From Branchiostoma floridae (Eukaryota > Chordata > Leptocardii > Amphioxiformes > Branchiostomatidae), in contig NC_049997.1 of assembly GCF_000003815.2 (NCBI RefSeq), positions 8,822,553 through 8,886,552 of the forward strand: a stretch of 64,000 nt of DNA. The letters are read 5' to 3'. Positions 7,469 through 61,274 of the stretch are shown piece after piece. The first letter of the stretch is position 1, and every line of letters starts with the position of its first letter. The notes under the pieces were generated by a model that worked only from the letters and a program-made list of their open reading frames with translations, did no database searches and was not told where the DNA came from. A program made the translations under genes and the position numbers.

Positions 7469-10400
7469 GTCAGTTCTACAACTCGTCTGGTTTACTTGGT
7501 TAAACTCCTTAACTTTCACTTGTAAAGTGTAACAGCTGTTCTGTCAGGAGCAACAAGTCTCTACCAACACTCGAGTACTCTCCTGGTCATCTCTATCGAC
7601 AGGTCAGTTCAACAACTCGTCTGGTTTACTTGGTTAAACTCCAAGTAAACAATTTTCACTTGTAAGGTGTGGCAGCTGCTATCTTCCAAGAGTAACAAGT
7701 GTACTCTCCTGGTCATCTCTATCGGCAGGTCAGTTCTACAACAAAGTTTGGTTTGGTTTATTTGGTTTAACTTCTTAGCTGTCAGATGTAAAGTGAATAA
7801 AGTGGCAACTTTTGGCACGTTGTTCAATACTGCTAAAACAGCACTGTTGATCTCTGACCACCCGACCCGACTTCCCACATAAACGTTATAATTAACGTTT
7901 TGCGATTCTAATTGACAGTTGTGTATATATTGTTACTCTGGGCTGTTGATTGTTTGGTTTCTCTTATTTCTTTGTTTATGCTATTTCATTCATTCATTCA
8001 TTCATTCATTCACTCATTTATTCACCATATTATTTCATAGAGAAGAATTTCAGCTGCATATCCATCTATCCCATGCTTTATGACGGTGTGCTTTTCACAT
8101 TGGTAATCATCTGTCCCATGAACTGGGTTCTTCGGTCCTTTATAGTTGATTTAGTTGACATGATGAGGTTATCTGTTTGGCCTTGGCTACGTCGTGTTTG
8201 ATCATTCAGGATGATTACATTTGATCACGGTGCACGTATTTTACGTATGGTGGTGGTTTCTGCCTTTCAAAGGATTTCCACCCGGTGATTTTAATCTTGA
8301 TCATGGAGGAATAAGGACTTTATTGGTTTCCAGGGTTACCTTTATGTACACTTCAAAGTGTAAAGTATTAACTTATTAAGTAGCTTCAACAGACGCTTCC
8401 ATATCAAGGACGTTCTCCATTTTAGTGTACGCGTGTGCAACAGAATGCATAATGGGTAATAATTCAAAGGTGAAGGTGTCTGAGACTAGGGTACCATCCG
8501 GATAGTAGTTCGCTCCTATATTCGCTTCTGCTATCTCTGGAAACACAGAGAAGCGACTGTATATAGTGTATAATGAATGTCAGAGCTAGAAGCGACTGTA
8601 TATAGTATATAATGAACGTCGGAGCGAACTACTCTTTGGATGGTACCCAGGCTAGTCTGAGACATGAATAAAACACATCTGAATATCACAATACTAATCG
8701 ATGAAATTGTCGACATCAGAACTGTTTTTTTTTATAATTTAGATATTGTAATACGTAAAATTATTGCATAGAAGACGACAAAATACACAAAAAGTAAGAA
8801 AATTCGTTCTTTATTTCGTTGAGTATCTTTCGAGCCCCGCAATGCCACAAGCGTGCCTCACGTCCGGTGAGAGTGCACATTTAGTCTTTGGCGTCCATCT
8901 ATGTACTTAGAATCGTGAACCCTCTTATTGATAGATTTAAAAAAAAGACTTAATAGCTTATTAGCCCTGGCGATACCATCTCATCATCACTTATTCAAGT
9001 CCAATTGCGTTGAAAGTAATGATTCTTTAAAAGCAGTTGGGTGCACTGTTTTCGTTGTATTTGCATGAAGGCTTATGTATGCTGAAAGGTGCGTGTGAAA
9101 AATAGAAAAAAAATGAAAACAATGAAACGTGACTCCAGCACTAAACTAAGACAAGATTTTCGACCAGTTCTATAATATAGAAACTCGAAAGCCGTGCACA
9201 AATGCCACCTGTCTTTTAACCGAACAACCTGTCTCGTTTGTTTGAACGTTTTTTTTTATTCATAAGAAGCTCAAATCGGCCCGCAGGCCGCTTCTTATTG
9301 AGGTCATTTAGTTAGATCCCCGTTTCTGGCACAACCTTATTTGAAAATCCTACGACATCAAAGTAGGACTATGTGTTCCTACCACAGATGTAAACGCATT
9401 GTCTGTGACTTAGGGCGATGTATGGTATTTCAAACCTATTGATGTTACCCGTAACCTTTAAATACCCCTGGGGCCTTGTGTTCATAATTGATAAGAAGAA
9501 CTACAATTACATCATATACCATATTTCTGCTGTATTATACACCATTTAACACGACCGCCATCTTAGAAGTGTTCCAAAATCGACCCGGTAAACGTAAATA
9601 TCCAAGTTGGTTTTGCTGTTACCCAAAGGTAGATGCTGAGGTTGTTAGTAGACCCATCCATGCGTACATGTGGTTTGATTGGATTTTGATCAAACCTAGG
9701 TCGTTCTCAACGCAAGGGTCCCTGTGAAATGTCAATCGATGCCAAGGTATTAAAAGTTTACACTGCAAGGTCAATTTGGATTGTGATTGAAAAAAACAAC
9801 AACTAAGGATTCAATATTGTCTAAATGGCCCGAAGCCAAAAATTTACAGTTTTTGTTTCTGACAAATGCAGGACCCCGTCAAATGAAGTAGCGAAGTTGT
9901 TACAACAACAAAGTTCTTTTGAGTAATGCGTTACGTGTATGAACTTTCTTTGGGAAGGTTTCCAAGAATGTTTGCCATTACTTATGATGTATGCTTGGCT
10001 AAACTCCTAGAGGAAGATATTCTAGTTTGGCAGATAGGATTTTCTGAGTCCCAAGAGTTAATTGAGTTGGCAACTTCATTTCTACCTGCATCGGGTCTAC
10101 GATTGATCTTATCATCCTTGGCAACCGTCCCAGCAAAATCCGTACTTACAATGTTAAAACTGTGCCCCCAGAAAACAAAGGACGTGCACAGAAATGTAGT
10201 TTTGTTCTAGAAAACAATATTTATGTTTTACAGTATGCGTGTGAATGATTTGTTATCTATTTTTAGCCTAGACAACCCATTTCTAATAAGCAAAAGAATG
10301 ATCTAAAACTAATCAATTATGTCATACTTAAAGACTGCACCATTCCCATCATGCATTTCACATGCGTCTGCATACAGGGAAAATGTTCAGTTCAGTTCAG

Positions 10401-13400
10401 TTGGTTTTAAAATTTTTCATCATTAATCTGTAATCAATTCTGTACCGGTTCCATGAAAATGTAATATTTTCATTTTTTAGTTTTATTTCCTTTTTTTTAG
10501 AAAATAGGACTTTTTTAGCCTCCCGTTTAAATACTGGTTATAGGTAATATTGAGATATGCAGAAAATACTGGGGTTTTACCGTTCTTGTACGTGCATGCT
10601 TTAACCCTATCCAGACTGGGCTTTTGGGGCATTCCCTGGACTATCTCATTTTGATTTTTAATTATAAATGTTCAACTTAGATGTGTTACACATTAAAGAT
10701 ATATGAAAAGAAGTTTAGTTTAGCAAGAAAATCTTAAAATCCCATTGTTTAAACCAAAATTAGTGATTTTTTGTAAAATTTGCCTTTCAGAAACCCGTTA
10801 CCATGGCAACACGAAAAATTATAAACTTACTCTATTTTTTTTTCAAATTGCTGCCAACAATATTCTAGAAAAAGTCACCAAGTTTAGTTGTTCTAGCACA
10901 AGCCGTTCGGGAGCTATAGGACGTCAAAGTTGCCGCGGGCACTTTACCCCCCCCCCCCTCCCACCCCCGGCTGGATAGGGTTAACAAATTGAATCTAAAT
11001 ACAGACAAAAGTGCCAAGGCCCAATTTGTGATGTTGGAAGATATCATTTAATGACTTACAATCCGTAACAAGCTTAATTATATTTTGTGGCGATCCATGA
11101 AATTGAATAATAAATCCATGAAATTGAATAATAAATCAATCTTTACTGCTGGATATATTAGGTAAGTAATATTAGGTACAATATTTATTGAAACGTTTCA
11201 GACAGCATCCATCGTCTTTCATCAATTCAATGAATATACAGAGATTCTACTTTATGTAAACATGTTGGTTTTGCTTTGTCTCTTCTTCTTCTTCTCCAAT
11301 CAAATAAGGTCAATGACCTGGGCCAGACAAATGACCTGGACCAGACAGCTATCACCATGGTTACCAGTAAAGATGCAGACACCCAGTGGTGTTCGGTTAC
11401 ATCAAGTAGCAAATGGCTTAGCACAGAGCTAGAGGGGTTCAGGTCACTTGGAGTAAGAATAAACATAACAGTATTTAGAGTAAGACTACAACATGTAAAG
11501 GCAAACATTATATATTTTCTTGCAAATGTCACCTTTCTTGTTATATTTATTTCTTAAATATTTCATTTATGGATGTACAGATGCCTGGTGGTGAGAAGGC
11601 AGTTTAACGGTAAGAAGACGAGGCGGAGTGTTGCTGTGGTGTTGGCGGTGGTGTGGACAGTCTCAGCCCTTGTAGCTCTCCCCTCGGCCCTCTACGCCAA
11701 GGTACGGAATCTTCCCTTTGCTATCAACTCCTGGTCACGGATTAAGAACGTTATAGAAAAGAAAAATAACACGTGTAATGTATAATAAATTGTTAGTTGA
11801 ACTACTGGTAATATCTAAGAATTTAAAAGTACCATTCTACTTTGTGAATAACAATAATAAGCCAATCTAGCTATGCATGCTCTAAAGTGTTCATTGTGTT
11901 GATGACAGGAATACGTTGTCTCGTTCTTGCATAAAATTGTTTCTTTCCTACACAAAGAGGGAATGCGTCCCATTTCCAAAAAATTTTCCATAAAAGTGCA
12001 TAGTATATAAACGGTAAAAAGTTCTTTGCTGGTGTCCTTGTTTTAGATGAAGGTTAGACATCCAGGTAATAACATACGCCAAATAGCAATTACTCAAGCA
12101 TCGGATATAACATTCGTTGCCTGGCCTTTTCCAAAATCATAATCCCGTTGCTTGAGTAATTGCTATTTGGCGTGATGTTTATATCATCATTTGACATTTA
12201 CCTAGAATAATACGAATACGAATTTTTTTTTCATATATGAAGTCATTGCATTGTAATATACATTTGTAAATAGCAACCCAGTCCCCTATAGATTTTACTA
12301 TTACGAATAGCTCACACGATGTTTATTCTGATCGGGAAGTAATCAGAAGTTGACTTTTGCCTAGACGTACATCGAAGGTTACAGATATTGACTATTATAT
12401 TCTATTCCTACAATAGATCCACCCTCAGCAGAACGGAAACAACATGTTCTGTGGGCAGGCGTGGCCTGTGAGCCAGATGTTTGCCTACAAGGCGTACTTC
12501 ATGTTCCTGATGATGATGATTATTCTATTCTATCTCTACTTTAGATCCACCCTCAGCAGAACGGAAACAACATGTTCTGTGGGCAGGCGTGGCCGGTGAG
12601 CCAGATGTTCGCGTACAAGGCGTACTTCATGTTTCTGATGGTGATTACTCTATTCTATCTCTACTCTCGATCCACCCCCAGCAGAACGGAAACAACATGT
12701 TCTGTGGGCAGGCGTGGCCGGTGAGCCAGATGTTCGCGTACAAGGCGTACTTCATGTTCTTGATGATGATTATTCTATTCTATCTCTACTCTAGATCCAC
12801 CCTCAGCAGAACGGAAACAACATGTTCTGTGGGCAGGCGTGGCCTGTGAGCCAGATGTTCGCGTACAAGGCGTACTTCATGTTCCTGATGATGATTATTC
12901 TATTCTATCTCTACTCTAGATCCACCCCCAGCAGAACGGAAACAACATGTTCTGTGGGCAGGCGTGGCCAGTAAGCCAGGTTTTTGCCTACAAGGCGTAC
13001 TTCATGTTCCTGATAATGATTATTCTATTCTATCTCTACTCTAGATCCACCCTCAGCAGAACGGAAACAACATGTTCTGTGGGCAGGCGTGGCCGGTGAG
13101 CCAGATGTTCTCGTACAAGGCGTACTTCATGTTTCTGATGATGATTATTCTATTCTATCTCTACTCTAGATCCACCCTCAGCAGAACGGAAACAACATGT
13201 TCTGTGGGCAGGCGTGGCCGGTGAGCCAGATGTTCTCGTACAAGGCGTACTTCATGTTTCTGATGATGATTATTCTATTCTATCTCTACTCTAGATCCAC
13301 CCCCAGCAGAACGGAAACAACATGTTCTGTGGGCAGGCGTGGCCAGTAAGCCAGGTTTTTGCCTACAAGGCGTACTTCATGTTTCTGATGATGATTATTC

Positions 13401-14089
13401 TATTCTATCTCTACTCTAGATCCACCCTCAGCAGAACGGAAACAACATGTTCTGTGGGCAGGCGTGGCCTGTGAGCCAGATGTTCTCGTACAAGGCGTAC
13501 TTCATGTTCCTGATAATGATTATTCTATCATATCTCTACTCTAGAGCCACCCTCAGCAGAACGGAAACAACATGTTCTGTGGGCAGGCGTGGCCGGTGAG
13601 CCAGATGTTCGCGTACAAGGCGTACTTCACGTTCCTGATGATGATTATTCTATTCTATCTCTACTCTAGATCCACCCTCAGCAGAACGGAAACAACATGT
13701 TCTGTGGTCAGGCGTGGCCAGTGAGCCAGATGTTCGCGTACAAGGCGTACTTCACGTTCCTGATGATGATTATTCTATTCTATCTCTACTCTAGATCCAC
13801 CCTCAGCAGAACGGAAACAACATGTTCTGTGGTCAGGCGTGGCCAGTGAGCCAGATGTTCGCGTACAAGGCGTACTTCACGTTCCTGATGATGATTATTC
13901 TATTCTATCTCTACTCTAGATCCACCCTCAGCAGAACGGAAACAACATGTTCTGTGGTCAGGCGTGGCCGGTGAGCCAGATGTTCGCGTACAAGGCGTAC
14001 TTCATGTTCCTGATGGTGGCGGAGTACGCTGTACCGTCACTCTGCATGGCCTTGTGTCTGCTCTTCGTCTGGTGCAAGGTGCATACAAA

Positions 14090-47252: not shown

Positions 47253-47465
47253 ATGCTGTCACCATGGCAACACGGATACATACGGGACGGCATCATGGTG
47301 CACTTCCACCATGGGAACCACTCCGATCCCCTCAAGCCGATCGGAAACGACAGCCTGGACGTGGCGTGTAAGGGGTGTTTCGAGCGGTTCGACACCACAG
47401 CGTGCGTCCGCAGCGGTCTCATGACCCTGTTTGTGACGGTGACAGGGCTACTTTGTGCTGCAAAG
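47253..47465 (+). CDS. 7TM gene exon 1 (N-terminus, first TM)
   Basis: 71 codons, MLSPWQHGYIRDGIM through VTVTGLLCAAK, donor GCAAAG/GTATTT, phase 0. Its 5' noncoding part probably begins at 47154. Another Met follows at residue 15. Confidence 0.75.
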
Positions 47466-50400
47466 GTATTTTTGATATATTTTTCCTATATTTATGTTGG
47501 GCATCAGCGTGCAAAAATACCCACTTGCACACTTGCANNNNNNNNNNNNNNNNNNNNNNNNNNNNNNNNNNNNNNNNNNNNNNNNNNNNNNNNNNNNNNN
47601 NNNNNNNNNNNNNNNNNNNNNNNNNNNNNNNNNNNNNNNNNNNNNNNNNNNNNNNNNNNNNNNNNNNNNNNNNNNNNNNNNNNNNNNNNNNNNNNNNNNN
47701 NNNNNNNNNNNNNNNNNNNNNNNNNNNNNNNNNNNNNNNNNNNNNNNNNNNNNNNNNNNNNNNNNNNNNNNNNNNNNNNNNNNNNNNNNNNNNNNNNNNN
47801 NNNNNNNNNNNNNNNNNNNNNNNNNNNNNNNNNNNNNNNNNNNNNNNNNNNNNNNNNNNNNNNNNNNNNNNNNNNNNNNNNNNNNNNNNNNNNNNNNNNN
47901 NNNNNNNNNNNNNNNNNNNNNNNNNNNNNNNNNNNNNNNNNNNNNNNNNNNNNNNNNNNNNNNNNNNNNNNNNNNNNNNNNNNNNNNNNNNNNNNNNNNN
48001 NNAATTTTGTAAATCGGTCAATATTTGGCGAAAATATTGACCAAAATATAACCTAAAAATGCCCAATTTTAAGCGTATCGGGGGACCATTCAGTTTTTAC
48101 TAATTCTTAAACCTGTGATCTAACAGAAAAATTGTAGTTGGTACAGTGTAGTTAGAAACTACTTGCTTATGATATGCGGTCATGTGACTACTAGTGATTT
48201 TATGCTTTTTTTTAAGGATATGACCATTTTTTGGTTCCATAGGGACTATTTTTCCATTTTACCCACATGTTGACAGATTCCAATGTTATTTTAACTGGAT
48301 ATATCTGTAGTCTGTAGCAGCTAATTGTTTGGTAATATTGGTGTTGTCTTTGTATGTAAAAGTAAGATATTATGTGTGAATAAGTTCAGAAGTAGAATAA
48401 GATCAGTAGCACTTTCTTATGACATATTATTTACAAGCAAAGTCCAGGATGTCATTTTCCGAAAAAAATCTGTAGCGTCCGTACCCCCTTTAATTTCTGT
48501 ACTAAGTAAATCCCACAAGCTTGTGATTATGACAGTTTAGAGGTCTCTATTACCACATACTAGAACACCCTTTAAATCATTGCTGTCCTGAAAACTCTGC
48601 CTAGTATAGCACCGTAAACATCAAAATGTAGCGTCCGTACCCCCTGTAGCGTCCGTACCCCCACCTGTAGCGTCCGTACCCCCATTTGAAGCTTTTTAGC
48701 AAAATGCTGTTAAAATTGCTGTCCAACTGCTACAATTCTGATTCAATACATTAATTACAGTTCTTACAGATATGATTGGTTAACTTTTTTCTCTAAAAAT
48801 GTGACTTTTCAATGAATTTGAGCTGCATTTTTCTGAGATTTCCTCCACAAATCCACATTTGCTACACCCCCTCAGACTTCATAAATGGTTCATTCCAAAG
48901 CAGCCAAAGATGGATGTGAGATGATAGTTGATATTCCCCCATGAGTTTAGCTGATATAAGAACACCAGTTTGGTAGATCTACATTATACAAGGCATAAAT
49001 TAAACATAGTATTACATAGTATGTAATGTGTAGCGTCCGTACCCCCTGCACTACTGTTTCTCTTGTCCAAACTAATATTTAGCATGTATTCAAGATAGAT
49101 GCAAGTATACATTGCTGGTTTGATGGCATGGGAAGCACTGTGTTATATTCTTTTATGTAAACCATCACTTCTTTATCACAGATTCTGTAAAATCTTCTAT
49201 CAGTAGGCCTGTTATCAAAAAGTAGAGTACAGATCCAACTGGGTGGAATCTCAACTGGCATACTTATATTTTCATTTTCTTTGTTAAACTGCTGCAGTAG
49301 CATTAATGGATGCTTCAATTAATAAATAGTTAATGATTATTAGAAAATGGACATGTTTAGTGGGCTAATTCCATTGTTCACTACCAGTCTTTACTATAAT
49401 TGTGTAGCGTCCGTACCCCCCTTGAAATGTTCATTAATGGTCATATGAAAGATTCTATGTTATGTTATACACTATATCTGCTGTAATTTTATGTAGAAGC
49501 CCAATAAGGATAGATAACCACCAAAATTTAGCTACTATGGTGCCTGGATTAAGAATTATAGTATTTGATCTTTGCTTCAAGCCAAAATACCCGCATATCA
49601 TTATAGCTGCTTTAGTAACAGATGACCAGAAAATGACCTAACATAGTCATACTGCAACTTGAGTTGATTTTCTAGCATAGCAAATGCTAATTATACAAGA
49701 AGATAAGGATAAAACACCCATTTTCTGTTCTAATGTTGAATATACATTATGCTGTAGTTCCAGTTATTCTACAGTTGTAGCGTCCGTACCCCCTTAGTGA
49801 TCCATTTATAAAAGCCCATGTACCGAAGTTATAAAAGCTCGTTGTGCGGAGATCCTTTAGGATAGTATGCCCAAGGTGTGCACCTTTGAACTGCTAACAA
49901 CAAAAAAAGAATAAAATGGAGTTGAATTTTCACCCCTAGTGACCCCCTTTTGGTACATTAGATTGTGAAGTAGCCGAATGTTTACACAAACCAATGCTAT
50001 CTAATATATTCTAAGATTAATAATAAAACCTACTTTGTGCTGCCAAGGTACAGCTACAGCCTCCCAATGTTTATAGTTGTATATTGTTCATATTTGTTGT
50101 AGAATGTAGTAGATATACTTTCAATGTTCACACAAAGCCAGTATGTATACTAAGAGCAAAACCAACTTTGTGCTCAAGCAAGGTATTGTTGCTACAGATT
50201 CCCTCATTTGTTAACTTGAATGTCCGTTATTTTGTTTTGTAGAAGTAGAAGATGTCTTTTTATAGAAGATGATTTTGAATTGATATATTAGATATCTGCA
50301 AAAACAATATGGCTTTCTCTCATTTTGCACTTGAAGCAAAATTTTTCCGAATTTTAGAACCTCACAAGGCTTGATTTATTGTAGGTCTCAAGTATATTTA

Positions 50401-53400
50401 ACTTAAGTCAATCTCTCGTATTAACTTGCAAGTTTAAACTTTTGGAAATGTGCATCTTCTTGTATAATTAATTATACTGTGAATAGGAAAAATATATCTG
50501 TAGATTGTAGAAATATTCATGTAAGATTTAAAAAGTTAAAACTGATGCAGTTTGATTATATTGTGAGAAGCTATGAATTCTTGCTGAAATGATATTATGA
50601 TTTACCATTCCTATTTTACATTGTAGTTTCTTACCAATATAGAATGATTTAGTCTTTACTAAAACTTTTATCTGAATTGTTTATTTATTTGTTTGTTTGT
50701 TGTGCAGTTGTGCCGTCTACACCAGAAGAACCAGAGAACAGTACACCAGTACATCATCTTCTACACAGCACTGGTGGAGTGTGTCTTATGGTGGGTACTG
50801 TTACCATGGAGATGGAACAAACTATTGAGGGTTGTCAGGAGGGGGTTGTTCAGTAAAAAAATATCACCCTCATCTAAGACTGTTTTCAATTGTTTTATAA
50901 AAGGGATTGGCTTTTTTTTTTAAGATGATTGTAGGCCACATTTAGCATTGTTTTTTTGATGACCAATATGTTTATATGACTATATAGGAATTATGACACA
51001 TTGCAATGTTTATGTTTCATTTAGTACATTCCTACAAACTAAGAAATTAGATGTGCTTCAGAGATAAAAGAGCTTAATAATAATATTCTTTCTGTAACAC
51101 AAATGTGAATATTTTTACAATGTTTACAAGAAGAAAAAATTCTATATCCGGCGTTAATGAAGATTGTACCATGAGATATTCTTGTACAACTAGTAACAAA
51201 CAAATACAATTCAATCTCTACAACTGGACAAATAATAGAGATTTACTTCCTATTGTTTTAAGTGACATCCATCACTCTTCTTCAATGTCACTACAATATT
51301 GTTTACAGTCAAACCTGTATTAGGGGCCACCTCTACAGATGGGCCACCTGTCCATAGTGGCCACTTTTTGTCGGTCCCTTGGGTATTTTATCTACAAGTT
51401 GCCACCTCTATACAGAGGCCACCTGTCTATAGTGGCCAAATTTGTCCAGTCCCTTGAGTGGCCGCTATAGACAGGTTTGACTGTACATGGAAGTCTATCC
51501 TTCATAAACATACTAGTAACAAAGTTCCTGTGTTGTTCTATTTCAGTGCAATCCATTGGATCTATGCCAAGTACACCCAGATCGAGTTTGGGCTGCAGTA
51601 TCTAAAGTTGCTCCAGTTCCTTGTGGTCTGCCATGTTTACTGTTGTCTCGCTGCCAGGGTCACAAGAAGAGAACAACTCTCCTCAAGGTACAAGAATATG
51701 TCGTATTATGCAATAATGACAGAAACAGATAGATGGTGTTGCAAGCTGCATTTCATGTATTATAAGGACCATGAATGTTAGCTGTGTAATAAAATATTGT
51801 CAATACTGTACAGTCAAAGCTAGCCTGAGTATCAGCCTGGGTAGTTTACCGGGGCTCCCATACTCCTCTTGGTGGGGGAGGAGTATGGGAGCCTCAGGGA
51901 CTCAGGCTAAGTCAAACCTGTACAAGGACCTCATTTTCACAAGAACCACTACTTTTTATATTTCAGCCATACATAGTATGGTGAAATATATTGTTATATT
52001 TCAGCCATACATAGTATGGTGAAATATATTGTATTCGTAATGTTTCTTTCTTTCTTTCTTTCTTCTTTCTCCTGTCAAATCTTCAAAGTGATTCATCTCC
52101 GCTTTTCCTGGACCGAATGACCTGAAATTTGGCACAGGGGTAGAATGGGCCAATACCTTGATGCTTTTTTCTCAGTTTTTTCATATCTGCCTCTNNNNNN
52201 NNNNNNNNNNNNNNNNNNNNNNNNNNNNNNNNNNNNNNNNNNNNNNNNNNNNNNNNNNNNNNNNNNNNNNNNNNNNNNNNNNNNNNNNNNNNNNAGACCA
52301 AAACTGTATATTTTGGCCCCTGTACCCTGGTATTACAACCAAATGAGCTGAAATTTGACAGAGATCTGCCTTGATAATGCCCCCATATAAATTCGATAAC
52401 ACTTTTGGTGTACAGTACAACAAAATGCTTATTTTTGCGATTTTTGACCAATTTTTGACCAAAAAAGGACACTTTTGGCCCCTGTACCCTGGTATTACAA
52501 CCAAATGAGCTGAAATTTGACAGAGATGTGCCTTGATAATGCCCTCATATAAATTCAATAACACTTTTGGTGTACAGTACAACAAAATGCTTATTTTTGC
52601 GATTTTTTTTACCAATTTTTGACCAAAAAAGGACACTTTTGGCTCCTGTACCTTGGTATTGCAACCGAATGAGCTGAAATTTGACACAGATGTGCCTTGA
52701 TAATCCCTTCATATAAATTCAATAACACTTTTGGTGTACAGTGCAACAAAATGCTTATTTTTGCGATTTTTGGCCAATTTTTTACCAAAAAAGGACACTT
52801 TTGGCTCCTGTACCCTGGTATTACAATTAAATGACCTGAAATTTGGTATAGATAGGCATTAGATACTTAGTAACAAGATTCAAGTAAATTTTTTGACATA
52901 AACAACTTTAAAATGATTAATTTTGGCACTTTTCTGAGGGGAAATTTGTTTTCTTTTGGCCTCCTGACGTGACCTTCCGTGACCCCGCACAGAGCCACAC
53001 CTGTGCGCGTCAGCCGGAGAGTTAATTGAATCAAAGACCTAGCCAATCAGCGAAGAGGAGGCCAAAGGCTAATTAATATTCATAAGCGGGGCCTCATGAT
53101 CCCGTATATAGCAGTGTTCCCGCCAGGGGGAGCGAAGCCCGCCTAAGGCTCTCGCATTTCAGAAGGCTTTATATTGTATCAGTTCTTAGGGGCATATCTA
53201 TGATAATCGCAGCAGTCACTTAACTCTCTCTTAACTTCTCTTCAGGAGTTTAGCGTAAGTNNNNNNNNNNNNNNNNNNNNNNNNNNNNNNNNNNNNNNNN
53301 NNNNNNNNNNNNNNNNNNNNNNNNNNNNNNNNNNNNNNNNNNNNNNNNNNNNNNNNNNNNTAGCGATGGTTTTTTCGCTGTGCTGTTAGCTCCGTGCGAC

Positions 53401-56400
53401 TGTTGTTGACGGTCTTATAACGGTATATTTTGCACCCCTGTACCCTGGTATGAGTAACATTTGGTATAGATAGGCATAAGATAGTTGGTAAAATGATCCC
53501 AAGTAAAATTTTTGGCTTAAAGTACTGTAAAAGGCTTAATTACAGCACTTTTTTTAGGGGAAATTGGTTTTCTTTCGTTCTCCATGCCATGATCTTTCGG
53601 ACGTTCACCCCACAGAGCCGACATCTGCACCTGCGTCTAGCCGGCAGGAAGAGTTAATTCAATTAATGGTTCAGCCAATCAGCGAAGAGGAAAGCGAAGG
53701 CTAATTAATATTCATAAGCGGGACCACACAATACGTTAACTTGAAGACTCAGGCCGTACAGACTTCTCGCCAGGATTTTTTCAAAGCGTCGGACAGGGGT
53801 CCGGGGGCCGCCGAATGTCCCTGGCGGGGTCCAGGGGCAGGGCCACTGTGGGGGGGGGGGGGGGGACCCAGGTGGGCGAAGCCCCCCCAGAAGCTCTTGC
53901 ATTTTAGACTATTGAGAAGGCTTCTTTTATCAGTTTTTTTAGGGCCATATCTACGATAATCGTAGCAGTCACTTACTTCTCTTCAGCAGTTTGACTTTAA
54001 AATATTTCGGGTCAAAGCTTCAAAGACAACTAAAACCTCATAAACAACAAACTTTACTTATCTCAACAGTATACAAAAATATTGTACGGGTTGCCATCCT
54101 TAGTTGAAGCGCTTATTTATAGCGCTAGTATCTTCGTTGCGCCGTTAGCCGCCGTGCGACTTTTGTTGACGGTCTGATAGCCCTGCGTCGCCGCCTCGCT
54201 GATATTCCCACGGACATGTTTCAAGAAAAATGCCTGGCAAAAAACGCTGTTCTGCGTCAAATTCTATTCTATAAAACATGTGGGACTCAGTGTTACAGTC
54301 TAAATATTTTGTAGAAGCACCGCTGTGGGAAAGAAGGTCCAAGCAATGTAATACATCACGTAGCATGAAGCTCGCTGTCAACTGGCTCACGACTGTTTGA
54401 AACTCTAAGTCTAATCAACAGCCGTGTTTGATTGATAGCCGGCGGCCCTTTGGTCAAGTCGGCGAAAGGTGCGTTAGTTAGACAGTTTGCGTTTAGTTTT
54501 GATACGTAATTATAAGTTAGACAGTGGTGAAAATGATTATTTTCTCATCAATATTTCTCTTCAGAATTATTTGAACTTAATTGTACATCTAAACAATTGG
54601 CTTACCTGTGCAATGTTTATATGATTAATGATCAGTGTACTGAAATCATGTGTAACGTATGGCTCCTAGTCAATAGATCAGCATTTTCTCTATAGTGATC
54701 ACCTGTCTATAGTGGCCACATTTCTATCACTGGACTGGAACTTGCGAAAACTGCTGTATTTTCTCCAGAGCAAATGTATGTGTTCCTAGTGCTGTTGTTG
54801 TTTGACATAAACTTTGAACATTTAAATTGTAAGTAACTTTAAACTGCCAGAGTTTCAGCCCAATAAAACACTCTCAGCGCCAGGGTATGAACAGACTGAC
54901 CAGACAGACGAAAATAAATCCTCGAACAAGGTTCAATCGTATCTTCCGGGTCTGGCAGGAAGTTGTTAAACTAAAATAAGAATAGGCTCGATGGCTGATT
55001 GCATACAAAGTAAAACAGTTTAACAGTTTTACAGCTTGAAGAAAACAAACGCTCCTACAGTACCTGCACCTGCTTGATAATTATTAAATCGTATGCCCTA
55101 CTTGAATAAAAAAAGTTCACTGCAATAATAAATGTACCCACATCACAAGGAGCTTATACTTTTTTAAACTTACACCTAGTTATCGTACTGAAAATTGTTA
55201 ATGACATTACATGAAGTCATTCAACAATTTTCAGTCATGATGAAAATTTTCTGAATGGAAGGTGTGATTATTGTCATTTTCTGAAAAATAGAAGCAAGCT
55301 CTGTTTTTACCTGGAATCAATTCACAATAGCAGTCCACTTTGGGGGATAATGTACTGTTAAGAGGATGTTCCATTTTTGCGCAGGGGTGATTTGGAACAG
55401 TCCAATGTTGCGTGGGAAGGGGTATGGCTGAAATATGCTGTATTTGCTCTTAAGCAAATGTCGGCCTTTCTAGTTAGTGGTCTTTTGTGGCCACTTGTCC
55501 ACATTGAATAGATTTTTTTCTAGTTGTCCTCCGAGTTTTGTGCAGCATTTATTACCAAATTATAATTCATTGGCAATTGTGAAAAAAGAAATCTTTCATC
55601 ACAGGAAATTGCAGGACTTTTGTTTATTCATGATTTCATTGTTGAAACCCTTTACAAAAAGACCATGTATACAAGTATCTAATTTTCCTTCCCCTTTATG
55701 TTCCTGCAGAGTTGTGGGTCCCCTGTTTGTGCTGGCCTTTATCTACTTCACAGTTATCGCAGTGATGGGCATGTTGGATGCCAGGTCCTCCTGGGTGGAC
55801 TGTAGAGGTAAGGGAAACATCTGATTGTCTGTGTTACACCCCCTTTCCGCTAGTGGCTGTGACTGCTGAGCAATATCTTTTAATAGGTTGCTCAAATTGT
55901 GTCGCATAGATAAAGAACAAATTCTTTACTGCTAGTGCTACAAGCCTCAACTTCAAGAGAGATATCGTGCCATTGATATTAGTGGAAATCCTCATAGGTA
56001 GCTTTGTCTTTGTTCAGTTGCTGCATTGCCATGTGCCTGTGAAGCTGGTGTGTTATGCCAAAAGGTGTTTGTACCAGTTGTATAGATGCAGATAAAATAG
56101 CTGGTGTGTTGTGCCAAACAGCTGTGTATATATATATATTAAGTGTTATACAGGCTATGTTATGCCAAGGGGAGGCTATACCAGCTATATAGATAGAGAT
56201 ACAGAAATTGGTGTGTGCCACCAAAGGGCAGTTATAGTTTATACTTTTACACAATGTGCCAGCTATATAGATATACAATCTGATATTAATAATAGAACTT
56301 TTCTAGTTCCCTATAAATCTTAAACATGTTATTTGTTACTGTGGAAATGTTTAATGGATATGGACTAATGTGTTTTCCCTCCTGTTCCAGAACCAGAATG

Positions 56401-59400
56401 GATCCTGCTGTCCTCCATGGAGTTCGTTCTTGTGCAGTTGTTTCTCGTCTCAGGGATTTACATCACCAAAAAACTCAACAAGATCAGCACACAGGCCGAG
56501 ACCAGGAGGGAGCAAAAACGGGACCTGTGGGGGTGAGGAAACTCTTACTGTAGATCTTCTAATGTTTGCGATAGTTTCATTGTTCCTTCTTTTTCAGCAA
56601 GCTCTTAAAAATGATTAAAAAATTGCTAAGTAATACATGTGTATGGCAATTGTATAGCACTACAATGAACTTGCAACAGTACACTGCAAAATTTCTTTTA
56701 TCCTTATATTGTGAAATAAAAGCACCATGAAAGTGAATGCATCTACAGTGGTTGGAAAATGTAATTGATTTACCTGTTGTCAACATAAATTTCAGTCAAC
56801 AATGTAGAAAATGAAGAGGACGTTTTGCAGTGGCAAATATATATAATATGGTATCATATTGCAGTTCTTCATTTTATTAGAAAAGAACTGCAATATGATA
56901 CCACTTTGCAGTAGTATAACCTATTCAAAATAGTTTCATTTTTATTTAACTTCCTCTTCATCCCATTGTATACAGTCACATGCTTTTCTTGATTCTGAAA
57001 TGCATTGTTAAAAATGTGAAATTCACTGCTATAATGTTTATCATTTTAGAGAGATCTACCACTTGTGAAATTGATAGTTTGTTACTCATAAAACTTTCAC
57101 AAATTGGTTACATTTTTCTGTTGAGGGTCATTGAAGAGACAGGAATTTTCCTTGACATTACATGCATTTGAATGTTTAACTAACAGCCAGTCTGATTTGA
57201 ATTCCAGGTTGATTGGTGTTTTTGAGCTGTCTGCTACCGTTACACTGGTTTATGACATCAACATGTTAATATGTAAGTATATGTATATGTATACACCAGT
57301 GGATATGATATTTTGTGATACCAGTGGATGTGATATTTTCTTAGGAATTTCATACAAATATAGTTGGAAACAGTATGGAAAATATTTCGACACCATCTTC
57401 AATATTATCAACAAAGTAGACTTGCACATAAATCTCCACTATGTTGTGAATGATTAACCCTCATCCGACCGTATGGGGTCATTTTTGACCCCAGGCGTAT
57501 ATTTTAATCTGCCACAGCAACATTTTTCATTAGAGAAAAAATTCCTTCCATGAATTTGTTTGTATACATGTCTTACAACATCTACCAATTTTTCGCTGAG
57601 TTTTGCCCATTATTGTATAAGCTATACTTGAAAGTTTGTGTCTTGTTCGGTGGGGTCAAAAATGACCCCAGCCAATTATGAATCATTAATTACATAAATA
57701 TCAAGATATTTCAATAAAATAAAAGGCATTCCTCATTATTGCTATTGCAGCAACAGGTTATAGTTGCTTCGATGAGTAAACACCGAATATTTTGAAAGAA
57801 ATTTAGTATTTTAGTGTAAAACACAGTTTTTCGACATTCTGCATAAATTATGATAATACGCACTAATTACCTATGCTAATGAAAGTGAAAATGTTTCTAA
57901 TTAATTAAAAAACAATATTTGGACAGAATGTGCAGAAGGAACCTACAAGAAAGATCTTTGCGGGAAAAAAGACAAGAGTTATTGTATGTATGTGTTTAGA
58001 TGGCGGAATATGGTGCATGATTAAGTAATAAATTCGTTACTTTTCACAAATATTCTATTTTTTCTTGTAATAATTCTTATCAGCATTATTGCATCACCAC
58101 AATTATTGTTTATAAATTGATAAAACAAAACATTGTTTAAGTAAGTTTAGTATGGTAGATTTTCAGAGCAAATGTGGGTTTTCCTCATTTTCTGCATAAA
58201 TTATGATAATGAGTAATAACTACTGACACCAAAACTTGTCAAAATATTTTTCATAGGTTAGTGAAACAGAAAATACATAGAAATGACAAAATAAGCCAGC
58301 AGAAATATGTCTATGAGCAAAACAAAATGGGGTCAAAAATGACCCCATACGGTCAGATTCGTCATAAAAATGTAACGGTCGGATGAGGGTTAAGTATGAA
58401 AAACATTGCCACATATGTGGCTTCAAGTACTGGAATTATCAACACAGGATGGTGGATGTGTGTAGGTATTCACTTTTTTATAAAACTATCATAGAGAAGA
58501 ACTTATTGCCACCAATGCAAGTACAGTTACTGTAAAAGATCCTCACTGGATAGCTTTGAACAGCTAGGTGTGCGGAGGTTAGGTGTGACATGTTGTTCAG
58601 TGTGATATGACCACTTGCTACCACACTGTATCCAAAGCTGGTGTGTAGTGCAGAAAAGTGGTTACACAAGCTAGTAATTATATAGATACAGATTAAGAAA
58701 GGTACAGAATGATTTAACTCTCTTTGTTTGTTCAATGACATGCGTCTCATTTTTGCCTCCTATTTTAGGGTCAGATGAAGACAACGGCTGCAGTGGTGTC
58801 TTCGTAAGTATCTTCTTCTTTTGTGCTGTATGCTTGTGACCTTGAATAATTATAAATTGCAGTGTTAGGGAATAGAGTAAAGAAGAATAGAAGAGAAGAG
58901 AAGAGAATAGATCTGAATGAAATGAAATGAAAGAAAATAGAATGGATTAGAATAGAAGAAACAAAATTGAAGTAAAATGTAATAGAATATTTTTTGGGTA
59001 AGACTTAGAGATCTTACTTTTTCAAGAAATATTAGCCATAGTACTTATATGTATATCATAGTTTCAGATGCACACCCAGTGGTTCTACTCCCTGATCTAT
59101 GCCCTGTTGTATGTCTGTGATTCTAACCTGTGTGTTATATATCCCCAGCTGCACACCCAGTGGTTCTACTCCCTGATCTATGCCCTGTTGTATGTCTGTG
59201 ATTCTAACCTGTGTGTTATATATCCCCAGCTGCACACCCAGTGGTTCTACTCCCTGATCTATGCCCTGTTGTATGTCTGTGATTATAACCTGTGTGTTAT
59301 ATATCCCCAGCTGCACACCCAGTGGTTCTACTCCCTGATCTATGCCCTGTTGTATGTCTGTGATTATAACCTGTGTGTTATATATCCCCAGCTGCACACC

Positions 59401-61230
59401 CAGTGGTTCTACTCCCTGATCTATGCCCTGTTGTATGTCTGTGATTATAACCTGTGTGTTATACTAGTATATCCCCAGCTGCACACCCAGTGGTTCTACT
59501 CCCTGATCTACGCCCTGTTGTATGTCTGTGATTATAACCTGTGTGTTATATATCCCCAGCTGCACACCCAGTGGTTCTACTCCCTGATCTATGCCCTGTT
59601 GGAGCTGTTGAAGTTCATGTTGCCCATCTGGACCATGCTGTGTGTGTTCCACCCTGTAGAGGCAGCTTCTACAGACTTCGACTCCAGCTGGGCAGAGGAC
59701 GGGGTCAGTTTATGTTATATGTTACTTTGTACAAAGGGATTAGTGAGGTTTTGTTGTTTATGTTTGCATATTTTGCCCTGTATGTAACTGCGAACGCATG
59801 CAAATCATGGTGGTGAAATTTCAGTATTCCTTATTGTATACTACATTTGTACTTTCAATGAAGAGAGTGAAGTTTTGTTGTGGCTTGCCTTGTATGTATG
59901 TTTGTATTTATTTGTCTTTGTTTGTGTTTGTGCATGTGTTTCTGCCTTTTTTGTATATCACATTTTTACTTTCCATGAAGGAAGTGACGTATTGTTTTGG
60001 CTTGCCTGTGTGTTTGTGTACAATGTATGTGGCTTCTACCGTTTTTGTTGCTCAAGGACTGGCAAGGACATACATTTTGGATCTGATGCCTTCGTGATGA
60101 CATACAATGAGACTTCATGTATTTCACAATTAAAGCCTAAGTCATTGAACAATTGATGTAAAAAAATGTTTTTAACATCATTATACTTCTTTGTGCTAGA
60201 GTGACTGGAGATGAAGTTCAGAGTTGACAGAATAAGTCATTGATTTGAAACTGTTTCTGTTTCTCCACACACCTACAGACGTACACGTCAGTGTTCAGTC
60301 CTCAGCAAGGAAACCGTTTAGAACACATTGTACATGTAAATGTCATACTTCTTCATGCCAGGGTGACAGGAAGTGAAGTTCAGAGTTTACAGAATAAGTA
60401 ATTAATCTGAACATGTTTCTGTTTTCCTGAACACCCACAGACGTACACGTCGGTGTTCAGTCCGCAGCGAGGAAGCCGTTACCGCCGGCTGCAGAACCCG
60501 ACAAGCGTCCAGGCATCATAAACATTATATTTCTGTATGCTGGGTGACAGGAAGTGAAGTTCAGAGTTGCCACAATAAACTCATTCATTTTTCTGTTTTT
60601 CCCCAAACCCACAGACATACATTTGGTGTTCAGTCAATTACATTTTCTGTATTGAAAGTGTTTTTGTTTCCCCACACACCTTTGTGCTAGAGTGACAGGT
60701 GAAGTTCAAAGTTGCCAGGTGAAGTTCAAATTTGCCAGAATAAGTAATTAATTCGTCTGTTTTCCCCCACACGTACAGACATACACATCGGTGTTCAGCC
60801 CGCAGCGAGGAAACTGTTTAGACCACATCGTTCATGTACACATCATACTTTTTCGTGACAGGAAGTGAAGTTCAGAGTTGCCACAATAAACCATTCATTT
60901 TTCTGTTTTCCCCCAAACGCACAGACGTACACATCGGTGTTCAGTCCGCAGCGAGAAAACTGTTAAGACCACATCGTTCATGTACACATCATACTTTTTC
61001 GTGACAGGAAGTGAAGTTCAGAGTTTCCTGAATGTGTGATTTATCATTCATCCTTGTTTCAAATGTTTTCCCTACAGACGTACACGTCGGTGTTCAGCCC
61101 ACAGCGAGGAAACCGTTACCGCCGGCTGCAGAACCCCACAAGCGTCCAGGCGACCCTCCACAGCAGCCGCTCCTTCCCCGTGCTGCCCCCCATCCACGAG
61201 GAGGAAACAAGCCCGCGACCTTCTGTCTAA
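47253..61230 (+). CDS. Seven-transmembrane protein, family uncertain, 9 coding exons
   Basis: The join 47253-47465, 50708-50790, 51547-51687, 55710-55807, 56391-56532, 57208-57272, 58769-58803, 59560-59703, 61078-61230 gives about 357 aa, every junction phase-consistent. The N-terminus has two sequons (NHS, NDS) and CKGC. About seven hydrophobic segments follow: residues 52-71, 85-106, 115-137, 147-168, 184-204, 227-246 and 264-292. The tail is Ser/Pro/Arg-rich (YTSVFSPQRGNRYRRLQNP). The loop after segment 5 is basic (ITKKLNKISTQAETRREQKR). The arrangement, and FYSLIYALLELLKFMLP in the last segment, recall the THH1/TOM1/TOM3-GPR137 group of 7TM proteins, but I cannot confirm this by eye. It has no DRY or NPxxY, so it is not an obvious class A GPCR. 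It probably acts in a membrane; nothing more can be said about its function. Confidence 0.75.
47538..48002. other. Assembly gap (465 N)
   Basis: Run of N starting 73 bp after exon 1 of the 7TM gene. Confidence 1.
48471..49793 (+). repeat. Seven interspersed copies of TGTAGCGTCCGTACCCCC
   Basis: Identical or near-identical 17-18-mers on the same strand begin at 48471, 48627, 48645, 48666, 49029, 49403 and 49776. Three are almost back-to-back; the other four are spaced roughly 150-400 bp in AT-rich DNA. Located in intron 1 of the 7TM gene after the 465-N gap. Confidence 0.9.
50708..50790 (+). CDS. 7TM gene exon 2
   Basis: Acceptor GTTGTGCAG, donor CTTATG/GTGGGT, phase 2. It encodes LCRLHQKNQRTVHQYIIFYT and ALVECVL. 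The split Cys codon TG/T joins exon 3 to give ECVLCAIHWIY, which fixes the boundaries. Confidence 0.78.
51304..51485. mobile_element. MITE with TACAGTCAAACCTGT ends
   Basis: Ends TACAGTCAAACCTGT and ACAGGTTTGACTGTA are exact inverted repeats, consistent with a TA target site. The inside repeats GGCCACCT(C/G)T...CTATAGTGGCCA. Fragments of the same family are near 54700 and 55480. In intron 2 of the 7TM gene, 61 bp upstream of exon 3. Confidence 0.75.
51547..51687 (+). CDS. 7TM gene exon 3
   Basis: Acceptor TATTTCAG. It encodes AIHWIYAKYTQIEFGLQYLK, then a TM segment LLQFLVVCHVYCCLAA and RVTRREQLSS. Donor CTCAAG/GTACAA, phase 2. Confidence 0.8.
51804..51930. mobile_element. Fold-back inserted in a TACAGTCAAACC-type MITE
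   Basis: The fold-back TAGCCTGAGTATC...GGGACTCAGGCTA (51821-51909, inner GGCTCCCATACTCC palindrome) is bracketed by TACAGTCAAAGC and AGTCAAACCTGTACAAGGAC, fragments of the MITE end seen at 51304. Confidence 0.6.
51957..52031. repeat. Two tandem 37-bp units
   Basis: TATTTCAGCCATACATAGTA followed by TGGTGAAATATATTGT, repeated once exactly. A (TTCT)n run follows at 52042-52070. Confidence 0.9.
52195..52294. other. Assembly gap (100 N)
   Basis: Run of N at the left edge of the 162-bp tandem repeat, where collapse is likely. Confidence 1.
52311..52850. repeat. Tandem repeat, 162-164 bp period
   Basis: Units start with TTTTGGCCCCTGTACCCTGG at 52311, 52473, 52637 and 52799 (last partial). Each contains GAGCTGAAATTTGACA, AATAACACTTTTGGTGTACA and CAAAATGCTTATTTTTGCGA. 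The preceding 100-N gap at 52195-52294 probably hides more units. In intron 3 of the 7TM gene. Confidence 0.9.
52799..53990. repeat. Duplicated segment (52799-53260 and 53425-53990)
   Basis: Both halves carry, in order, CCCTGTACCCTGGTAT, TTTTCTTT, a GC-rich block, AGCCAATCAGCGAAGAGGA, GGCTAATTAATATTCATAAG, a GGG(C/G)GAAGCCC block, GATAATCG(C/T)AGCAGTCACTT and TTCTCTTCAG(G/C)AGTTT. The second copy has a G-run at about 53850-53865. A 100-N gap (53261-53360) separates them. Confidence 0.8.
53261..53360. other. Assembly gap (100 N)
   Basis: Run of N between the two copies of a duplicated segment. Confidence 1.
55187..55235. other. Near-perfect hairpin in intron 3 of the 7TM gene
   Basis: ACTGAAAATTGTTAATGAC pairs with GTCATTCAACAATTTTCAGT, loop about 10 nt, one bulge. 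Confidence 0.6.
55710..55807 (+). CDS. 7TM gene exon 4
   Basis: Acceptor TTCCTGCAG. It encodes VVGPLFVLAFIYFTVIAVMG then MLDARSSWVDCR. Donor TAGAG/GTAAGG, phase 1. Confidence 0.82.
55985..56285 (+). mobile_element. Decayed LINE 3' tail
   Basis: Contains GTGCCTGTGAAGCTGGTGTGTTATGCC and repeats of TACCAGCTATATAGAT(A)GAGATACAG, matching the 3' tail seen at 3121-3152 and 58560-58690. Not coding. In intron 4 of the 7TM gene. Confidence 0.5.
56391..56532 (+). CDS. 7TM gene exon 5
   Basis: Acceptor TGTTCCAG. It encodes EPEWILLSSMEFVLVQLFLV, SGIYITKKLNK and a basic, Gln-rich loop to DLW. Donor GTGGGG/GTGAGG, phase 2. Reading on meets a TGA at once, supporting splicing here. Confidence 0.82.
56850..56902. 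other. Perfect 20-bp hairpin in intron 5 of the 7TM gene
   Basis: Arms GGTATCATATTGCAGTTCTT (56850-56869) and the exact reverse complement (56883-56902) with a 13-nt loop. The size fits a small palindromic element or a hairpin RNA precursor; the sequence alone does not decide. Confidence 0.7.
57208..57272 (+). CDS. 7TM gene exon 6
   Basis: Acceptor ATTCCAG. It encodes LIGVFELSATVTLVYDINML and I. Donor TAATAT/GTAAGT, phase 1, a strong site. Confidence 0.78.
57458..58389. mobile_element. piggyBac-like MITE 3 with perfect TTAA duplication
   Basis: Begins CCCTCATCCGACCG and ends CGGTCGGATGAGGG, perfect 14-bp inverted ends, with TTAA on each side (57454-57457, 58390-58393). Subterminal palindrome GGGGTCATTTTTGACCCC. 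In intron 6 of the 7TM gene. Noncoding. Confidence 0.85.
58500..58695 (+). mobile_element. Decayed LINE 3' tail
   Basis: GTTAGGTGTGACATGTTGTTCAG then CAAAGCTGGTGTGTAGTGC and ATATAGATACAGATTAAG. It aligns by eye over about 100 bp with the tail that follows the reverse transcriptase fragment near 3080-3152. In intron 6 of the 7TM gene. Confidence 0.5.
58769..58803 (+). CDS. 7TM gene exon 7 (35-bp microexon)
   Basis: Acceptor CTATTTTAG, donor GTCTTC/GTAAGT. With the preceding T it encodes WSDEDNGCSGVF. It enters in phase 1 and leaves in phase 0, exactly as its neighbours require. Confidence 0.7.
59068..59640 (+). repeat. 7-unit in-frame minisatellite of exon 8 acceptor plus exon start
   Basis: Units start at 59068, 59149, 59230, 59311, 59392, 59479 and 59560: 81-bp period with one 87-bp unit. 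Each has about 41 bp of exon (HTQWFYSLIYALL), a GTATGT donor-like hexamer, about 25 bp, then TATATATCCCCAG as acceptor for the next. All units are a multiple of three and share one open frame with no stop, so the entire array can be read into exon 8. Unit 1 has a different acceptor (GTTTCAG) and ATG in place of CTG. Confidence 0.95.
59560..59703 (+). CDS. 7TM gene exon 8 (last TM)
   Basis: Acceptor TATCCCCAG, 48 codons. It encodes LHTQWFYSLIYALLELLKFM, LPIWTMLCVFHP and VEAASTDFDSSWAEDG. Donor GACGGG/GTCAGT, phase 0. Any of the six upstream acceptors in the array would also give an in-frame product. Confidence 0.83.
60279..61130 (+). repeat. 6-unit array of exon 9 acceptor plus exon start
   Basis: Units begin with ACGTACACGTCGGTGTTCAG or close variants at 60279, 60441, 60615, 60779, 60925 and 61078, each preceded by a CACAG/TACAG acceptor and by GACAGGAAGTGAAGTTCAGA. 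Spacing varies from 146 to 174 bp. Unit 2 extends furthest (SPQRGSRYRRLQNPTSVQAS then TAA). Unit 3 is degenerate; units 4 and 5 stop soon after SPQRGNC or SPQREN. Confidence 0.9.
60441..60521 (+). other. Candidate alternative terminal exon (array unit 2)
   Basis: CCCACAG acceptor followed by 26 codons matching exon 9 almost residue for residue, then TAA after VQAS. Phase 0 as required after exon 8. It would give a tail about 24 residues shorter. Confidence 0.4.
61078..61230 (+). CDS. 7TM gene terminal exon 9
   Basis: Acceptor CCCTACAG, 50 codons plus TAA. It encodes TYTSVFSPQRGNRYRRLQNP, TSVQATLHSSRSFPV and an acidic/Pro end (PPIHEEETSPRPSV). It is GC-rich compared with its surroundings. It is the longest member of the exon 9 array. 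Confidence 0.82.
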   Translation, partial: TYTSVFSPQRGNRYRRLQNPTSVQATLHSSRSFPVLPPIHEEETSPRPSV

Positions 61231-61274
61231 AAACAGCAGTTGGGTTTGAAGGGGGAACGGATTTCAAGGATATT

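Follow-up and report, generated by a model that had tools for sequence, protein, structure and literature searches.

A tandem array at the exon 8 acceptor of a probable Branchiostoma floridae membrane-protein gene fits the amphioxus mirage class of minisatellites

The window analysed, a stretch of 64,000 nucleotides of Branchiostoma floridae DNA, contains a probable lancelet membrane-protein gene, for which a model of nine exons with matching phases was predicted from 47253 to 61231. With exon 8 taken from 59560, the predicted product has 357 amino acids and seven hydrophobic segments. The exons flanking the region of principal interest were placed as follows.

47253..47465, forward strand: predicted exon 1 (start codon at 47253 guessed, a later Met being possible), donor gtattt, phase fitting exon 2
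50708..50790, forward strand: predicted exon 2
51547..51687, forward strand: predicted exon 3
55710..55807, forward strand: predicted exon 4
56391..56532, forward strand: predicted exon 5
57208..57272, forward strand: predicted exon 6
58769..58803, forward strand: predicted exon 7, donor gtaagt after 58803, phase 0
61078..61231, forward strand: exon 9 proper, with stop codon

Comparison of the predicted protein with Pfam gave no family above the cut-off, the best being MARVEL (E 0.0086, 16.6 bits versus a cut-off of 32.8), and comparison with PDB chains gave no match up to E 10. A search of the genome for a second copy at E 0.001 returned eight matches, all within the host gene itself, which on these predicted sequences is left as an apparent orphan. 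Two features of its introns were recorded by eye. Intron 6 contains, at 57458-58389, an element of approximately 930 bp with terminal inverted repeats starting CCCTCATCCGACCG and TTAA on both flanks, presumably a non-autonomous element of the piggyBac type; in intron 1 several copies of the motif TGTAGCGTCCGTACCCCC lie scattered between 48470 and 49800, and TRF adds a short tandem run of it at 48627-48684.

At the boundary of intron 7 and exon 8 the acceptor and the start of the exon are repeated in tandem.

59068..59559, forward strand: candidate mirage array of six upstream units, each a 42-nt copy of the exon 8 start plus a 39-nt tail, with lengths of 81, 81, 81, 81, 87 and 81
59068..59148, forward strand: unit 1, which begins ATG and is preceded by a non-homologous, acceptor-like TTTCAG
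59392..59478, forward strand: unit 5, of 87 bp, with a 6-bp insertion within the tail
59560..59703, forward strand: exon 8 proper, 144 nt, starting LHTQWFYSLIYALLELLKFM and joined to the exon body, with a continuous frame across the nine predicted exons

Copies of the exon start were located at 59068, 59149, 59230, 59311, 59392, 59479 and 59560, giving successive start-to-start spacings of 81, 81, 81, 81, 87 and 81; TRF called the same array at 59065-59601 with a period of 81, 6.6 copies and 96% matches, and resolution as a 162-nt double unit gives the same spacings. A single open frame of 241 codons (59062-59787) encloses all seven copies. The seven exon starts, their spacing and their common frame, as claimed in an earlier note on this DNA, were thereby confirmed, as were the gain of exactly two codons by the 87-bp unit (6 bp) and, given phase 0 after 58803, the retention of the frame of the gene model from any of the seven acceptors. 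Its description of seven whole units held for the exon starts but not for the tails, of which there are six, the sequence upstream of the first copy being different; likewise, a module of 27 residues is correct in general, the exceptions being one module of 29 residues and the M at the start of the first module.

The array thus comprises seven exon-start pieces of 42 nt (LHTQWFYSLIYALL) and six tails of 39 nt, one of them extended to 45 (TATGTCTGTGATTATAACCTGTGTGTTATATATCCCCAG), each tail including CCCCAG and either TCTAAC or TATAAC, which we take to be branch-like. Upstream of the first copy lies CATAGTTTCAG followed by ATG, that is TTTCAG/ATG, as against CCCCAG/CTG at the repeated acceptors, and no similarity to the repeated tail was detectable in this upstream sequence, 675 of 1000 shuffles scoring as well. 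Since the first copy is without the repeated tail, simple duplication of an intron end plus an exon start fails at the left edge of the array, which is left unexplained. All six joints between an exon piece and a tail carry GTATGT, a donor-like site absent from the description in the earlier note, by which the units could be split on paper into 41-nt micro-exons and 40-nt micro-introns, a length very short for an intron.

Copies differ little: two variable positions occur in the 42 nt of exon start and two in the first 31 nt of tail, the 6-bp insertion in unit 5 accounting for one of the latter, so the array would appear to be young or recently homogenised. Individual units are nevertheless marked by internal variants, namely a C/A variant in the tail, a T/C variant in unit 6 and the insertion in unit 5. 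In the one assembly searched (513,431,437 bases in 431 contigs), the array occurs at one place only, all seven matches falling inside it. Its predicted RNA structure was no stabler than that of shuffled sequences (z +1.36; 94 of 100 folding at least as well). A match of the translated array to DUF1543 (26.5 versus a cut-off of 22.9 bits) was attributed to repetition of the peptide, because no stretch taken singly reached the cut-off.

Two further arrays of the same general kind were located within the window, one of them at the next exon of the host gene.

60279..61077, forward strand: second mirage, five decoy copies of the exon 9 acceptor and exon start
12417..13919, forward strand: control mirage in a rhodopsin-family GPCR gene (PF00001), 12 decoy acceptors with exon starts

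The exon 9 decoys start at 60279, 60441, 60615, 60779 and 60925, with spacings across the six copies of 162, 174, 164, 146 and 153, and all five decoy frames stop ahead of the real exon 9. The copy at 60441 encodes 26 residues before its own stop, 24 of which match the real exon, and as predicted might act as an alternative final exon. The GPCR array consists of 13 copies at about 12417-13920, spaced by 128 once and thereafter by 125, neither being a multiple of three, and 12 of 12 decoys stop after 59-60 amino acids.

Of the 14 distinct codon changes that separate the GPCR decoys from their terminal copy (12417-14015), 9 are synonymous and 5 nonsynonymous, whereas the synonymous fraction expected for random changes is 0.16-0.23; the resultant p values (7e-5 to 1e-3) assume independent changes, which those between copies are not, and the result is accordingly a lead. 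As the decoys are unreadable in frame into the exon body, the simplest reading would be that unequal exchange moves units into and out of the terminal position, where they are translated, or that they are copied from alleles under selection. Counter to the generality of such a process, the decoys of a homeodomain exon elsewhere in the genome (L019, vide infra) show by eye several amino-acid changes relative to the start of the real exon (E to D, H to F, F to V). The exon 8 array offers too few differences for the equivalent test.

The incidence of such arrays was assessed in 20 additional stretches of 10 kb each, taken from the genome at fixed positions chosen without looking. TRF listed 38 rows with a period of at least 25, of which 24 arrays were inspected with their flanks, 4 were duplicates and 10 were left uninspected. 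Six of the 24 inspected arrays were judged by eye to lie at splice junctions (L016 at 9762; L019 at 6030 and 8526; L022 at 5436 and 6794; L035 at 9000), an ambiguous case, L016 at 7525, being left out. Family searches covered the L019 exon at 6030, the only one of the six with family support, and the two L022 peptides, which gave no match above the cut-off. In three further stretches TRF listed two rows, and no mirage was obvious in either. The resultant density of 6 in 230 kb, or approximately one per 38 kb, has a wide error, depending as it does on calls made by eye. Such arrays thus recur across genes, with three located in the window and six among the 24 inspected elsewhere, and this small sample points to a common class in the B. 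floridae genome. No genome-wide count of mirages was found in the library of literature searched.

Several of the sampled arrays deserve separate description. In L019 an acceptor-type mirage (6030-6461, 52 bp) is followed some 2 kb downstream by a donor-type mirage (8526-8864, 49 bp), the two perhaps belonging to one gene. The donor-type mirage of L022 (6794-7679) has approximately 18 copies of 48 bp, most units having GTAAGT, GTGAGT or GTGGGT. A 51-bp repeat in L017 (2138-3119, 19 copies) has a minus-strand frame open over the whole of its 327 codons. The donor-type arrays have periods of 86, 49, 48 and 91.

Five acceptor-type arrays were compared with respect to reading frame: those of exon 8, exon 9 and the GPCR exon in the window, and those of L019 and L022 in the sampled stretches. 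Only the exon 8 array was fully open, and only two of the five, those of exon 8 and L022, had spacings divisible by three throughout. In the L019 homeodomain exon (PF00046, E 1.6e-5), with a spacing of 52, six decoys of the seven acceptors located, which were found by pattern and do not cover every unit, run into stops. The L022 array, its frame judged from its one open frame and without family support, has spacings of 78 and 108 and is in frame, but reading from either decoy meets a stop within the array. In a 200-kb sample read on both strands, 367 of 928 acceptor-like 39-nt tails were open in the frame ending at AG, as were two of the seven tails at the other acceptors of the host gene. The chance that any one array is both in frame and open is then 1/3 x 367/928 = 0.13, and the probability of at least one such array among five is 0.51; for this purpose the seven open exon 8 copies count as a single event, to which the 6-bp insertion contributes only a further factor of about 1/3.

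With one array of five open in this small sample, no conservation of frame above chance expectation was found. Given one open array in five against a chance of 0.13 each, it is suggested that the unit length divisible by three and the freedom from stops in the exon 8 array reflect chance and not selection. Frame selection went unsupported, four of the five arrays being broken, including that of L022, which is in frame and yet interrupted by stops; a sample of five is too small to rule selection out, but it gave no sign of it. Of the two readings that the earlier note offered for the 87-bp unit, frame selection or chance, the controls thus favour chance.

The module itself was compared with the native segments of the predicted protein. 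Its best mean Kyte-Doolittle hydropathy over 19 residues is 1.54-1.56, rising to 1.88 in the 87-bp unit, as compared with 1.34-2.50 for the seven native segments, and it carries Asp and Asn mid-module. An approximate insertion energy, computed with our own code, was about equally unfavourable over 19 residues for the module (3.13 at best) and for native TM7 (3.02); the module was slightly the better over 17 residues (2.01 versus 2.27) and the worse over 21 (3.96 versus 3.67) and 23 (4.66 versus 3.87). A role as a membrane span would therefore be possible but borderline: the earlier estimate of about one span agrees with the overlap in hydropathy with the weakest native segments, but has to contend with the Asp in mid-span. 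The wider proposal of an array that adds transmembrane segments went unsupported, the repeat fitting the mirage class and only one of the five acceptor-type arrays being fully open, at a chance of about 0.13 per array.

In the predicted gene model the exon 8 unit spans the intron-exon boundary, with 42 nt of exon start and 39 nt of acceptor tail, and the array thereby fits the known class of amphioxus mirages, minisatellites that duplicate such a boundary. It is very probably an ordinary member, in which the upstream copies are decoys, 59560 is the acceptor normally used, and the frame is open by chance. A young minisatellite, spanning the end of intron 7 and the opening 42 nt of exon 8, would have grown by slippage or unequal exchange; the copies from 59068 to 59479 would then be decoy acceptors removed with the intron, and splicing would normally run from 58803 to 59560, the copy on the exon body, perhaps picked by the spliceosome through exon definition with 59704 as the donor. 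With 59560 as the acceptor the gene model reads through in one frame, and arrays of the same kind lie at exon 9 of the host gene and at the GPCR exon. Published mirages in the Adh3, TnC and globin genes are, in addition, said to leave splicing undisturbed (PMC3087553, PMC3902484). What speaks against an ordinary mirage is that six of the seven acceptors are near-identical in their upstream sequence, so that five decoys should locally be as strong as the real acceptor, and that in an array both open and in frame the product of an acceptor slip would be translated and not removed by decay. The openness of all seven copies also counts against it, although as copies they amount to one event, as does the missing repeated tail at the first copy.

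Those near-identical acceptors, together with the open frame, are also what favour a noisier form of the same arrangement, unlikely though by no means negligible, with low and unregulated use of upstream acceptors and minor, longer, functionless proteins tolerated by the open frame. Available excerpts of the globin study set against this the Adh3 data and RT-PCR of globin mirages, which are said to suggest regular splicing without interference (PMC3087553).

It is distinctly improbable that all seven acceptors are usable, giving isoforms or alleles with 0-6 extra membrane-like modules of 27 residues before TM7 and an altered number and topology of transmembrane segments. The frame is indeed kept at seven of seven acceptors, six of the seven copies share the same acceptor tail, and the hydropathy of the module, unit 5 included, overlaps that of the weakest native segment (1.34). 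However, the other four acceptor-type arrays, that of exon 9 in the same gene among them, are out of frame or contain stops, and the mid-module Asp and Asn and the unfavourable insertion energy, a property shared with native TM7, are also adverse. Mirages in other genes are, moreover, said in excerpts of the relevant papers not to affect mRNA (PMC3087553, PMC3902484), those of Adh and TnC generating no aberrant mRNAs (PMC3902484).

More improbable again is an error of assembly in the copy number or in the array itself. Short identical units are hard to assemble, and an aberrantly assembled mirage is reported for haplotype 1 of BflGb6 in the available part of that study (PMC3087553), but the unit-specific variants mark distinct copies, and arrays of this kind are frequent in the stretches sampled. 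According to an excerpt of its description, a chromosome-scale assembly of B. floridae exists (PMC7269912).

There is very little to recommend the idea of an in-frame mirage captured as a switch of protein length, whereby allelic copy number and acceptor choice would set 0-6 modules before TM7; if true, an unstable minisatellite would tune the topology of a receptor-like protein. The weakest proposal, scarcely to be entertained, is an intermediate in intron gain in which CCCCAG and GTATGT turn each unit into a new exon and intron pair, the 41-nt micro-exons breaking the frame unless used in multiples of three and the 40-nt micro-introns being so short. In its favour are the GTATGT at six of six joints and the intron-gain model proposed for globin mirages, which in the available excerpts are held to be capable of creating introns (PMC3087553).

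As a probable ordinary mirage, the exon 8 array would add a clean and probably young example to the unstable repeats at splice boundaries. Mirages offer a practical system in which to ask how the spliceosome chooses one acceptor among near-identical ones, and in-frame open arrays would be natural test cases, because wrong choices survive as protein and escape decay.

Mirage minisatellites of amphioxus were reportedly the subject of Canestro et al. 2002. Internal tandem repeats in human segmental duplications are likewise described, in the portion of the report available, as altering the exon-intron structure of genes, but they differ in their units of about 30 bp on average, in their setting of primate paralogs and in resting on transcripts compared with the genome (PMC2812944). 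In amphioxus, excerpts of two reports describe mirages in the genes for Adh3, globins (BflGb6 and BflGb9), TnC and PGBD5 (PMC3087553, PMC3902484), and the splice signals of mirage units could, it is stated, act as cryptic sites (PMC3087553).

The PGBD5 repeats, as excerpted, resemble the exon 8 array in lying at splice sites and in having unit lengths divisible by three, with 2 or 7 copies of 60 bp and 3 or 6 copies of 108 bp (PMC3902484). They are unlike it in being imperfect, in involving both types of splice site and in varying in copy number between the two sequences described; in the JGI gene model, exon 5 took in two of the 108-bp repeats as translated sequence and was left out by the authors (PMC3902484). 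Published units elsewhere, in the excerpts available, measure 10-72 bp (Adh3), 150-160 bp (BflGb6) and 157 bp (BflGb9), as against 81 here. The unit of the exon 8 array is a multiple of three and open in the frame of its exon. Like the mirages described for Adh3, the globins and TnC, the exon 8 array is a tandem repeat of several similar units over an intron-exon boundary in the same animal group, and with BflGb6, as excerpted, it shares the acceptor type, a 3' intron end joined to a 5' exon part.
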